Positions 2,854 through 5,271 of a stretch of DNA of 5,432 nucleotides are shown here, piece by piece. Both the position numbers and the translations under genes were made by a program. This DNA comes from Candidatus Anstonellales archaeon (GTDB lineage: Archaea > Micrarchaeota > Micrarchaeia > Anstonellales > CG1-02-47-40). The stretch covers positions 1-5,432 of the forward strand of contig JAWCQO010000015.1 of the NCBI GenBank assembly GCA_038869735.1, given 5' to 3'. Position 1 is the first letter of the stretch. The number at the start of each line of letters is the position of its first letter. The notes under the pieces are model-generated. The model was not told where the DNA came from. It saw only the letters and a list, made by a program, of their open reading frames with translations, and searched no databases.

Positions 2854-2912
2854 AGAGAGAATAAAGGTGAACTGTAAAGTTAGCGACACCTATTTTGATG
2901 CAAAAAAGCCAA

Positions 2913-2957
2913 TCGGGCACCGACAACTTTAAAAACTTCGGGTTCCTAATTCATTTT
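2913..2957 (+). promoter_or_regulatory. Leaderless promoter with paired operator sites, copy 1 (AbrB-like gene)
   Basis: A TATA box TTTAAAAA (2928-2935) is flanked by TCGGGCACCGA (2913-2923) and a degenerate TCGGGTTCCTA (2938-2948). The sites start 25 bp apart. The upstream site covers the BRE position, where TFB would bind, and the downstream site lies between the TATA box and the start. The ATG at 2958 is about 26 nt from the TATA centre, so transcription should begin at or next to the start codon. The layout matches copy 2 at 3185-3229 with no gap. A protein bound here would be expected to block TBP/TFB or polymerase. Repression is inferred, not shown. Confidence 0.75.
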
Positions 2958-3116
2958 ATGAAGATTATGAAGGCTTTTGACAAGAAGGTAGGCAACACAG
3001 AATACTATAAGTATAGAATTAATTTGCCAAAAAAGATAGTAGAGGATTCTAATTTATTGGGAAAAGAAGTTAAGGTAAGACTAGTAAAGGACAAAATAAT
3101 TATCGAGAAAGAGTAA
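2958..3116 (+). CDS. Small AbrB/SpoVT-like DNA-binding protein (swapped-hairpin fold)
   Basis: The 52-residue protein starts MKIMKAFDKK. Its EYYKYRINLPKKIVEDSNLL (residues 15-34) followed by GKEVKVRLVKDKIIIEKE fits the single beta-alpha-beta hairpin repeat of AbrB/MazE/SpoVT-type transcription factors, which dimerise to bind DNA: a beta strand ending in LPKKIV, a short helix, then two strands. I chose the ATG at 2958 because the TATA box sits at leaderless distance and the transposase ATG has the identical 45-bp offset from its operator. An in-frame TTG at 2895 would place the promoter inside the gene and is unlikely. A second ATG at 2967 is possible. No toxin partner follows, which argues against a MazE-type antitoxin, and the next gene is the transposase. 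The protein is the best local candidate to bind the operators at 2913 and 3185, giving autoregulation plus transposase control (inference). Confidence 0.75.
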   Translation: MKIMKAFDKKVGNTEYYKYRINLPKKIVEDSNLLGKEVKVRLVKDKIIIEKE

Positions 3117-3184
3117 ATATTTTCTACTCAGTTAGGATTTTCTTGTTCTAAATCGACTACTAATTACCAAACCCGTTTATCTAT

Positions 3185-3229
3185 TCGGGCACCGAAAGAT
3201 TTATATACTTCGGGTACCGAATATATAGT
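3185..3229 (+). promoter_or_regulatory. Leaderless promoter with paired operator sites, copy 2 (transposase)
   Basis: A consensus archaeal TATA box TTTATATA (3200-3207) is preceded by a purine-rich BRE-like CGAAAGA. It is flanked by TCGGGCACCGA (3185-3195) and TCGGGTACCGA (3210-3220), both of the form TCGG-N3-CCGA. The ATG at 3230 is about 26 nt from the TATA centre, indicating a leaderless mRNA. No Shine-Dalgarno sequence is present. From the first operator base to the ATG this copy agrees with 2913-2960 at 37 of 48 positions without gaps. The first operator and the CT-TCGGGT stretch after the TATA box are fully conserved. Confidence 0.8.
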
Positions 3230-4093
3230 ATGCTTAGCAAGATAAAATGCATACATTGTGGAAGTGCAAACAACTGCAAGAAAGGCCGACGCAAAACCTT
3301 GTATCGAGGAAAAATACAGAAATTTTACTGCAAGGATTGCAAGAGATTTTTCACTCAAGATGACGGCTTTTATCGAATGAGAAACAAGCCCGAGATTATA
3401 ACAATGTCAATTGATATGTATGTCTCTAACCTGTCGAGCAGAAAAATGAGAAACCAATTGAAAAGGCATTTTGATCACAAGATAAGCCATGTTTCTATTT
3501 TGGATTGGGTTAGAAGATACACATTAAAAGTTCAAAAATTCATAGAGAAGCAGAGCTATAATTTAGGTGACAGGTTTTATGCTGATGAGACAACGATTGA
3601 TTGTGAATGTAGGAAAGACAGGTTTTGGTGTTGTCTTGATTGGGGTACAAGATTAATTACTGGAGTGCATTATAGCTTAGCTGCTAATCCTGTTGAAGCG
3701 CAGGAATTTCTAAAGAAAGCAATAGCGAAGGGAAAGCCAAAGTACATTCAAACAGATGCTGGAATGTTCTATCCAAGAGCATTTAGGAAAATGTTTTATT
3801 CTAATAAATTTGGTGGCTTAGTTGTAGAGCACAGAATACAAAACTATCAGGAAACAAGAATTCATAATTATAGAATTGAAACTGTATTTATGAAAATCAA
3901 AGATAGGGTTCTTGACTTCAGGGGGTTGAAGGCTCTTTGGTCTGCTCCAATCTTATTGAATGCGGTAGTTATCCAGCATAATTTTATTGAAAACCATTGC
4001 ACGACTAATGAAGTTCCTTGCGAAACGGCGGGAGTTAAATTAGGATTGGGGGAAAATAGGTGGCTGGATTTGATAAGATTGAGTAGTAGTTAG
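3230..4093 (+). CDS. DDE transposase with N-terminal zinc ribbon, IS6/IS240-like
   Basis: The 287-residue protein catalyses DNA cleavage and strand transfer for an insertion sequence. Four cysteines form a zinc ribbon: C7-x2-C10 and C34-x2-C37, the second in FYCKDCKRFF. A helix-turn-helix-like region follows at about 70-98, ending ILDWVRRY, comparable to the TIYRWV segment of IS6-type enzymes. The RNase H-fold catalytic residues are D119 (FYADETTID), D176 (YIQTDAGMF) and E217 (YRIETVFMKIK), with spacings of 57 and 41. All three are present and the frame is uninterrupted, so the enzyme may be active. Length is at or slightly above the usual IS6 range because of the zinc ribbon. The ATG at 3230 is fixed by the TATA box 26 nt upstream. 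The stop at 4091-4093 lies 10 bp from the convergent reductase stop. Family placement is from motif pattern. An IS1-like or other zinc-ribbon DDE group is the alternative. Confidence 0.9.
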   Translation: MLSKIKCIHCGSANNCKKGRRKTLYRGKIQKFYCKDCKRFFTQDDGFYRMRNKPEIITMSIDMYVSNLSSRKMRNQLKRHFDHKISHVSILDWVRRYTLKVQKFIEKQSYNLGDRFYADETTIDCECRKDRFWCCLDWGTRLITGVHYSLAANPVEAQEFLKKAIAKGKPKYIQTDAGMFYPRAFRKMFYSNKFGGLVVEHRIQNYQETRIHNYRIETVFMKIKDRVLDFRGLKALWSAPILLNAVVIQHNFIENHCTTNEVPCETAGVKLGLGENRWLDLIRLSSS

Positions 4094-4103
4094 GTGATAT
4101 ATA

Positions 4104-4721
4104 TTACACGCTTTCTGTGCGTGCTATCTTAAGCACTCTTCCCCACCAGAGAAGCTCGTTAAGGAATCTCTCCACAGGATCACCCATAGGACTTTTACGC
4201 ATTTGCTCGAACATTTCAGAACCCTGAGGACCTTTGCCCATCATTGTCGCAAAAAATATATCAACAGGAATATGAATGGAGTTTCTAATAGGTACCATTT
4301 GAAGTTCAATGGCAACTTGCCGAAGCTGTTCAACCGCGCGAGCACCTAAAGCACTGCCATAACTTACAAAACCGACTGGTTTTCTATTCCATTCCATATA
4401 TATCACATCCATTGCGTTTTTGAGAACCGCAGGATAGCCATGATTATATTCTGGAGTTACTATAATGAAAGCATCCCCATCATTAATTTTTTCTGACCAT
4501 TCCTTCACTACTTCATTTGGATATTGTCTCTTTGCCATCGAAGGTGATATTGCTTCATTAAAAAATGGCATCGGATAATCGCGCAGATCTAGGAGCTCAG
4601 CTTCCACATCTTTCAGCTTCTTTATTTCCTCAAAAATCCACTGTGCCGGTTTTTCGCTGAAACGATTTTGCCTCGTGCTACCAATAATGACTTTAATTTT
4701 AATAGTTCTCATATTATTCAT
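4104..4721 (-). CDS. NAD(P)H-dependent FMN reductase family protein (flavodoxin-like fold)
   Basis: The 205-residue cytoplasmic flavoprotein should use NAD(P)H to reduce FMN or a quinone, azo or similar acceptor. The substrate cannot be told from sequence. Evidence for the FMN_red family is the N-terminal strand KVIIGSTRQNR (G14-S-T-R-x-x-R20, the FMN phosphate loop), VTPEYNHGYPAVLKNAMD at 88-105 (flavin-ring contact region) and FVSYGSALGARAVEQLR at 118-134. The length and the C-terminal LLWWGRVLKIAR are normal, so the neighbouring element has not truncated it. The ATG at 4721 overlaps the upstream ArsR stop as ATGA, which indicates translational coupling. A second in-frame ATG at 4712 lies 11 nt from the Shine-Dalgarno core and is a possible alternative. 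It is transcribed from the ArsR promoter, so the repressor's ligand probably relates to its substrate (inference). It lacks features I would need to call it ArsH. Confidence 0.92.
   Translation of the reverse strand: MNNMRTIKIKVIIGSTRQNRFSEKPAQWIFEEIKKLKDVEAELLDLRDYPMPFFNEAISPSMAKRQYPNEVVKEWSEKINDGDAFIIVTPEYNHGYPAVLKNAMDVIYMEWNRKPVGFVSYGSALGARAVEQLRQVAIELQMVPIRNSIHIPVDIFFATMMGKGPQGSEMFEQMRKSPMGDPVERFLNELLWWGRVLKIARTESV
4107..4123. terminator. Possible bidirectional hairpin at the convergent gene ends
   Basis: CACGC (4107-4111) pairs with GCGTG (4119-4123) around a 7-nt loop. It lies in the last codons of the reductase, just beyond the transposase stop. On the minus strand it is followed by an AT-only stretch (TAATATATAT), which could help end the reductase transcript. 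The stem is only 5 bp and there is no long T-run, so this is a weak call. Confidence 0.3.
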
Positions 4722-5029
4722 TTCCTCCTTGATTTGTTGTTATAAAATTTTTGTTTTTGAACTTCCTCTGATAAATTCTTCAAAATCTTGAGCATATGCT
4801 CTGTGTTGATGGTGTAAAATATTTCTTGCCCTCTCCTTTCGTTAATCACGATATTATTGTTTTTAAGTGTTTTAAGATGCTGTGAGACTGCAGGTTGAGA
4901 CAGTCCAACTATCTTGACCAGCTCACCAACTGTTTTTTGTCCCTTAAGCAGAGCTTCTACAATTTTATAGCGGGAAGTACTACCTATACCTTTACCAAAT
5001 TTTTCTATCTCATTACAAAGATCAGTCAT
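4718..5029 (-). CDS. ArsR-family winged helix-turn-helix transcriptional repressor
   Basis: The 103-residue dimeric DNA-binding regulator starts MTDLCNEIEKFG. The wHTH is clear: SRYKIVEALLKG (19-30), TVGELVKIVG (33-42), recognition helix LSQPAVSQHLKTL (43-55), and a wing RRGQEIFYTI (65-74). The C-terminal helix is rich in lysine. The frame extends upstream to 5086, but I chose the ATG at 5029 because a TATA box (5053-5060) lies 26-27 nt before it, giving a leaderless start, and because conserved ArsR homology begins about here. The only cysteine is C5. The CxC metal-binding motif of arsenic or cadmium sensors is absent, so a metal ligand is not supported. Redox or small-molecule sensing is possible. 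The gene overlaps the FMN reductase by 4 nt (ATGA) and is the first gene of a two-gene operon, probably self-repressed through the dyad at 5035-5056. Confidence 0.93.
   Translation of the reverse strand: MTDLCNEIEKFGKGIGSTSRYKIVEALLKGQKTVGELVKIVGLSQPAVSQHLKTLKNNNIVINERRGQEIFYTINTEHMLKILKNLSEEVQKQKFYNNKSRRK
4724..4730 (-). promoter_or_regulatory. Shine-Dalgarno sequence of the FMN reductase
   Basis: AAGGAGG on the minus strand ends 2 nt before the ATG at 4721 and 11 nt before the ATG at 4712. Neither spacing is ideal. The ATGA overlap with the upstream gene favours 4721. It is the only strong ribosome site in the window and serves an operon-internal gene, as is common in archaea where the first genes are leaderless. 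Confidence 0.75.
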
Positions 5030-5066
5030 ATAATAATATAAGGATATACTTATATTTAAAAGGTTT
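5030..5066 (-). promoter_or_regulatory. Promoter and operator dyad of the ArsR-reductase operon
   Basis: On the minus strand an A-rich BRE-like AAACC precedes TTTAAATA (plus-strand 5053-5060), whose centre is 26-27 nt before the ATG at 5029. Overlapping the TATA box and the start region is a perfect inverted repeat with 8-bp arms, AATATAAG (5035-5042) and CTTATATT (5049-5056), separated by 6 bp. The size and position fit an ArsR-type operator, where dimer binding would block TBP or polymerase. Autorepression is inferred. Confidence 0.75.
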
Positions 5067-5117
5067 TCTATTCGATGAATAAACATAGGTGACGTTTACT
5101 TTACAGCTCAAATAAAG

Positions 5118-5131
5118 GGAAAATTTATAAA
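5118..5131 (+). promoter_or_regulatory. BRE/TATA promoter of the 5S rRNA gene
   Basis: GGGAAAA (BRE-like) leads into TTTATAAA (5124-5131). The TATA centre is about 26 nt before 5153, the first base of the 5S terminal stem, so the transcript appears to start at the mature 5' end. It is divergent from the ArsR promoter. The two TATA boxes are about 64 bp apart. Confidence 0.72.
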
Positions 5132-5152
5132 CATAAAAAATCCCAACTTCTT

Positions 5153-5265
<113 letters not shown>

Positions 5266-5271
5266 TAACTC

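Follow-up and report, generated by a model that had tools for sequence, protein, structure and literature searches.

The window, a stretch of 5,432 nucleotides that constitutes contig C15 of the genome, harbours a complete IS6-like transposon of 2243 bp (positions 2868–5110) with four genes. The element is bounded by inverted ends, TGAACTGTAAAGTTAGCGACACCT on the left (2868–2891, + strand) and TGAGCTGTAAAGTAAACGTCACCT on the right (5087–5110, read on the − strand), and by a perfect 8-bp target-site duplication, AATAAAGG, at 2860–2867 and 5111–5118. The inverted ends were not visible when the flanks of the transposase gene were aligned alone, and were identified by comparing the window with related elements (the left end is the same in L066, L067, L077, L108, and others). 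On the + strand lie the genes for a 52-residue AbrB/MazE-like DNA-binding protein, a predicted repressor (2958–3116), and for a 287-residue IS6-like DDE transposase with an N-terminal CxxC zinc-ribbon motif (3230–4093), which is single-copy in this genome. The − strand carries two cargo genes overlapping by 4 bp, one for an ArsR-family regulator (4718–5029; PF01022, 58.3 bits; start codon chosen by comparison with relatives) and one for an NADPH-dependent FMN reductase family protein (4104–4721; PF03358, 141.8 bits). A type I restriction gene region flanks the transposon on one side and a 5S rRNA gene on the other. The transposon stands immediately upstream of this 5S rRNA gene (window 5111–5266), with 33 bp separating the end of the right-hand duplication from the start of the 5S gene; the insertion therefore abuts what is likely the 5S promoter.

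Two 48-bp modules, at 2913–2960 and 3185–3232, form the promoters of the AbrB-like gene and the transposase gene inside this transposon. The first-pass annotation had read them as one regulatory module shared by two unrelated genes, which was upheld; it had missed the intact transposon around them and the wide recurrence of the arrangement described below. Direct gapless alignment again gave 37 of 48 identical positions. The same pair was recovered by a repeat search of the window and as its top-scoring pair of 48-mers on the same strand, the runner-up (34) falling in restriction-gene coding sequence. Both modules begin with TCGGGCACCGA (operator 1; 2913–2923 and 3185–3195), and the offsets reported earlier were reproduced in each: a TATA-like run 15 bp into the module (TTTAAAAA, 2928–2935, and TTTATATA, 3200–3207, both on the + strand and both supported by sequence and by relatives, the former being conserved in class-A relatives), a second site 25 bp in (operator 2; 2938–2948 and 3210–3220), and the ATG 45 bp in (2958 and 3230). 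The operator site is a palindrome, TCGG-N3-CCGA. Both sites of the transposase promoter, the second of which is TCGGGTACCGA, are perfect and were located by motif search and alignment, as was operator 1 of the AbrB promoter, which is also apparent from the sequence itself; the second AbrB-promoter site, TCGGGTTCCTA, is a degenerate palindrome, placed by the module alignment and by relatives. The motif is not scattered through the genome: exact TCGGGNACCGA occurs three times in 884,197 bp, every copy lying inside the modules. The two downstream proteins, described earlier as dissimilar, gave no alignment with each other at E ≤ 100.

The transposase contains an IS240-type DDE catalytic domain (PF13610, 39.9 bits against a cut-off of 27), and the curated NCBIfam IS6 equivalog (NF033587) was its best match among all IS families, at 80.4 bits and hence below the cut-off of 125. 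The 8-bp target-site duplication is as in the IS6 family. The ends, TGARCTGTAAAGTTAGCG, contain CTGT and AAAG behind a TG tip, where the IS6 pattern has a GG tip, cTGTt, and caaa; archaeal IS6 members are described as distant relatives whose ends are longer and in many cases lack the GG tip (Harmer and Hall, PMC6807381). According to a review of the family, IS6 elements carry one transposase gene each, only one listed member (ISDsp3) has a passenger gene, and little is known of how their expression is controlled (PMC7986276). The single-gene layout of about 0.7–0.9 kb was not found here, and with 2243 bp and four genes the element is termed IS6-like and is not filed as an IS6 member. The resemblance to the archaeal branch of IS6/IS26 consists of the DDE_Tnp_IS240 domain, the 8-bp duplication, and inverted ends that agree in part, through their CTGT motif. 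Published members comprise one gene and about 0.7–0.9 kb, whereas the elements considered here measure 2.0–4.1 kb and combine a zinc-ribbon transposase with an AbrB regulator, varied cargo, and TG in place of GG tips. Since published IS6 elements are single-gene and their regulation is little known, the arrangement is new relative to known IS6, and no description of AbrB regulators in archaeal insertion sequences was found in the open-licence literature.

The 52-residue protein matched PF04014 at 17.8 bits, under the gathering score of 24.7, and its match to TIGR01439 was also weak. Two members of its family exceeded the PF04014 gathering score (L043, 30.9 bits; L052, 26.0 bits), and 12 of 14 members matched the profile at E ≤ 0.1. 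An AlphaFold2 model predicted a hairpin–helix–hairpin (E-E-H-E-E) with a pLDDT of 90.3, for which the best Foldseek matches were MazE (probability 0.98–0.99, E only 0.04), followed by the AbrB N-domain, a modest significance for a chain this short. The predicted fold is that of the AbrB/MazE/SpoVT swapped-hairpin proteins, which include C56 of pSSVi and C68 of pSSVx from archaeal plasmids. Here, however, the protein is paired with transposases, not toxins, and has its own conserved N-terminal hairpin (K10, G12, Y16).

When an alignment combining the window transposase with its nearest relative in the phylum (G100, from a whole-genome search) was scanned against genome contigs, 50 loci were obtained, mostly in Woese-, Pace-, and other DPANN archaea and many at 55–89% identity. 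A perfect 8-bp duplication was present in ten more elements (L066, L069, L076–L079, L083, L084, L087, L094), and elements with such a duplication ranged from 2.0 to 4.1 kb in length. About 30 related DPANN elements, including almost all of the close relatives, have a site–TATA–site promoter ahead of the transposase, and nearly all of these elements possess the AbrB-like gene. The sites are spaced 25 bp apart in most cases, 26 bp in L089, and 28 bp in L081, L082, and L094. An AbrB companion was found at 27 of the fetched transposase loci, either directly upstream on the same strand (operator classes A, B, and C) or divergent (class D and its kin). The arrangement in G100 is also divergent, and its AbrB gene was matched independently when the window AbrB protein served as the query. 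A strict phylum-wide scan for the TCGG/CCGA module returned this genome only, plus one two-mismatch match in each of G086 and G277, as relatives use other operator spellings. Neither the AbrB protein, nor the transposase, nor the operator module gave a match in viral contigs, and phage records contained no transposase match.

Among seven class-A elements, pairwise identity was 100% and 97% at the two sites and 90% in the TATA stretch, against 32% in the region from −110 to −50 and 60% at third codon positions of the transposase. The flanking sites are thus no less conserved than the TATA box. Checked against the two refuting conditions of the first-pass annotation, this result and the confinement of the motif to the modules both favour its reading. 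Conservation so far above that of the upstream region and third positions suggests that the sites are under selection and do not persist through inheritance alone. Class B has a degenerate first AbrB-promoter site, and autoregulation in this class may rest on one site.

Several related elements differ in content. Their cargo includes a C5 methyltransferase with a Vsr-type endonuclease (L067), an MvaI/BcnI-type restriction enzyme with a methylase (L077), a HEPN and nucleotidyltransferase pair (L087), a ParE-like protein (L083), DsrE/DUF302/ArsR (L066), an S66 peptidase (L079), and a TrmB-like regulator with a methyltransferase (L078). Next to the left end of L087 lies a hybrid module (3911–4020); the AbrB gene is absent, and the transposase is truncated. 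The 5′ flank of the hybrid resembles the window AbrB module (74%, against 17% for the transposase module), and the 3′ part resembles the transposase module (92%, against 65% for the AbrB module); on the simple account, the AbrB gene was apparently deleted by recombination between the two direct module repeats. More distant transposases (about 30–33%; L093, L095, L104, L106) occur without this AbrB. Upstream of the transposase, a short ORF resembling a zinc ribbon is divergently placed in L093 and L095, a 45-residue ribbon-helix-helix-like ORF is present in L104, and the TATA box of L106 is flanked by perfect TTCATTATAATGAA palindromes. These features suggest that other regulators may take the role of AbrB in such elements.

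The identity of the protein that binds the operators was approached through partial rank correlations of operator, AbrB, and transposase distances across 23 elements (partial Mantel tests, which ignore phylogeny). Operator distance correlated with AbrB distance given the transposase (r = 0.45; 0 of 2000 permutations as high), and with transposase distance given AbrB at r = 0.15 (143 of 2000 permutations as high). The clearest evidence on the putative binder is provided by two natural swaps. In the first, the transposases of L070, L071, and L075 are 88–91% identical, their AbrB proteins are 31–50% identical, and their operators differ (TCGGGTTCC, TCATGTACC, and TTAGGTACC, respectively). In the second, L071 and L089 have transposases of 34% identity, AbrB proteins of 67%, and operators of 96% (class C). 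Judged from these sequence comparisons, the operator follows the AbrB protein and not the transposase. AbrB-promoter and transposase-promoter operators were also more alike within an element (0.88) than between elements (0.73; 14 of 20,000 shuffles, which likewise ignore phylogeny), a likeness that gene conversion between module copies could raise; co-inheritance of AbrB gene and operators as one block could likewise create part of the correlation. The comparative genetics supports the AbrB protein as the putative binder, in agreement with the first-pass annotation, which had proposed the 52-residue protein for this part; its sequence indeed tracks operator class. The AbrB residues that differ from class to class are at positions 4–7 and 17–20.

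Individual genomes offer further detail. The TCAGGTACCTGA operator of L098 has no AbrB gene in its vicinity; a profile search located a class-C-like AbrB with the N-terminus MKIRKVLDKRVG about 1.6 kb upstream. The complete genome AR20 contains elements of classes B, C, and D and one D-like element. Its class-B operator (one mismatch allowed) occurs solely at the class-B element, and the class-C pattern occurs at the class-C element and at scattered single sites near background. Co-resident elements differ in class in AR20, G303 (A, D), and G315 (A, C), and both are of the same class in G314; we do not claim that co-resident elements avoid a shared operator class, as discordance is expected anyway from class frequencies.

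The AbrB family is not confined to IS6-like elements. A profile search of 301 genomes of the phylum returned six strong AbrB homologues, all six adjoining a transposase gene or a transposase-like fragment. The neighbours are IS6-like in two cases (the window and G100). In G188 and G270 the AbrB gene lies divergently to the gene for an IS5-type DDE_Tnp_1 transposase, and a SWIM zinc finger was detected in the transposase of G188; the neighbour in G176 resembles the same IS5-type transposase by eye only, and that in G204 is a SWIM fragment. The IS5-type loci have several TTAGGTRCCTAA-like palindromes around TATA boxes in their shared promoter regions, and at L052 (G270) the two sites enclosing the TATA box of the transposase promoter likewise show the 25-bp spacing. 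The IS5-like transposase showed no meaningful similarity to that of the window, and the presence of the same AbrB family and sites beside it indicates that the control module is used with unrelated transposases. Elsewhere, at L047 (1501–2301), the AbrB-like domain continues into a 266-residue protein with an IS5-like transposase adjacent. Weaker AbrB homologues at L142 and L143 (E about 1e-9) are accompanied by GGTACC-type palindromes at 33-bp spacing; their neighbours are membrane and coiled-coil-like proteins, with no transposase in the vicinity.

An alternative binder would be the transposase, which might control its own expression through the paired sites in the way that some bacterial transposases bind their own promoters. 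Close relatives of the transposase gene almost all have the sites in front, and elements of the same-strand type have their AbrB-promoter sites at a distance of about 45 bp from the left end. Nevertheless, we regard this alternative as improbable: transposases of 88–91% identity have three operator classes whereas one of only 34% identity shares class C, the sites track promoters and not ends (in divergent elements they are 0.4–1.4 kb from the left end), and the same kind of sites precedes the unrelated IS5-like transposase.

It is instead very probable, on the strength of sequence and comparative evidence, that the 52-residue protein represses both its own gene and the transposase gene through the paired sites, acting as an autoregulated brake on transposition. 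The AbrB/MazE-fold protein, presumably as a dimer, would bind the TCGG-N3-CCGA palindrome. Site 1 would abut the B-recognition element, with site 2 placed downstream of the TATA box and ahead of the start, and an occupied pair would block TBP/TFB or the polymerase, shutting down the AbrB and transposase genes together. With TATA boxes that begin 30 bp ahead of the ATG, the transcripts are, given archaeal promoter geometry, probably leaderless. The sign of the regulation, repression, is read only from site positions; on another reading, the AbrB protein would act on the same sites to activate transcription or to assist transposition architecturally. This too appears unlikely to be correct, given that the second site falls between TATA and the probable start, an improbable place for an activator, and that the right end has no sites and the site-to-end distance varies among elements. 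Still less probable is an explanation without a dedicated regulator, in which the repeats are strong host-type promoter elements or a product of chance or duplication; the TATA boxes are at the right distance and the copies are direct repeats able to recombine, but the genome contains the palindromes only here, they differ from the TATA and BRE common to archaeal promoters, and their sequence changes together with AbrB. An antitoxin role for the AbrB-like protein in a toxin–antitoxin pair, as its nearest solved folds (MazE antitoxins) might imply, is very improbable, since the window contains no toxin gene to pair with it, a transposase gene stands beside it in one element after another, and its 52 residues are barely above the size of a DNA-binding domain.

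Temperate phages (cI) and regulated transposons (Tn3 TnpR) encode regulators acting on operators that overlap both their own promoter and that of the recombinase. The proposed AbrB circuit resembles these in having operators at its own and the recombinase promoter and in specificity classes that differ between related elements, but it has archaeal TATA promoters, an AbrB-fold regulator, and no known resolvase role. More tentatively, and with the balance of probability tilting slightly against it, the AbrB gene and its operators may form a portable immunity cassette, exchanged among IS6-like and unrelated IS5-like SWIM transposases, with operator classes acting like phage immunity groups. If so, elements of different classes would coexist in one cell, while newcomers of the same class would be repressed.

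The repressor–operator pair predicted here is short and open to experiment in archaea, with natural swaps that point to the binding partner, and a DNA-recognition code could be read from AbrB–operator covariation. For IS6-type transposases, whose control is little known (PMC7986276), the elements would provide a regulator of their own whose operators can be read in numerous independent copies, within a family of DPANN cargo transposons that moves restriction-modification and toxin-like genes.
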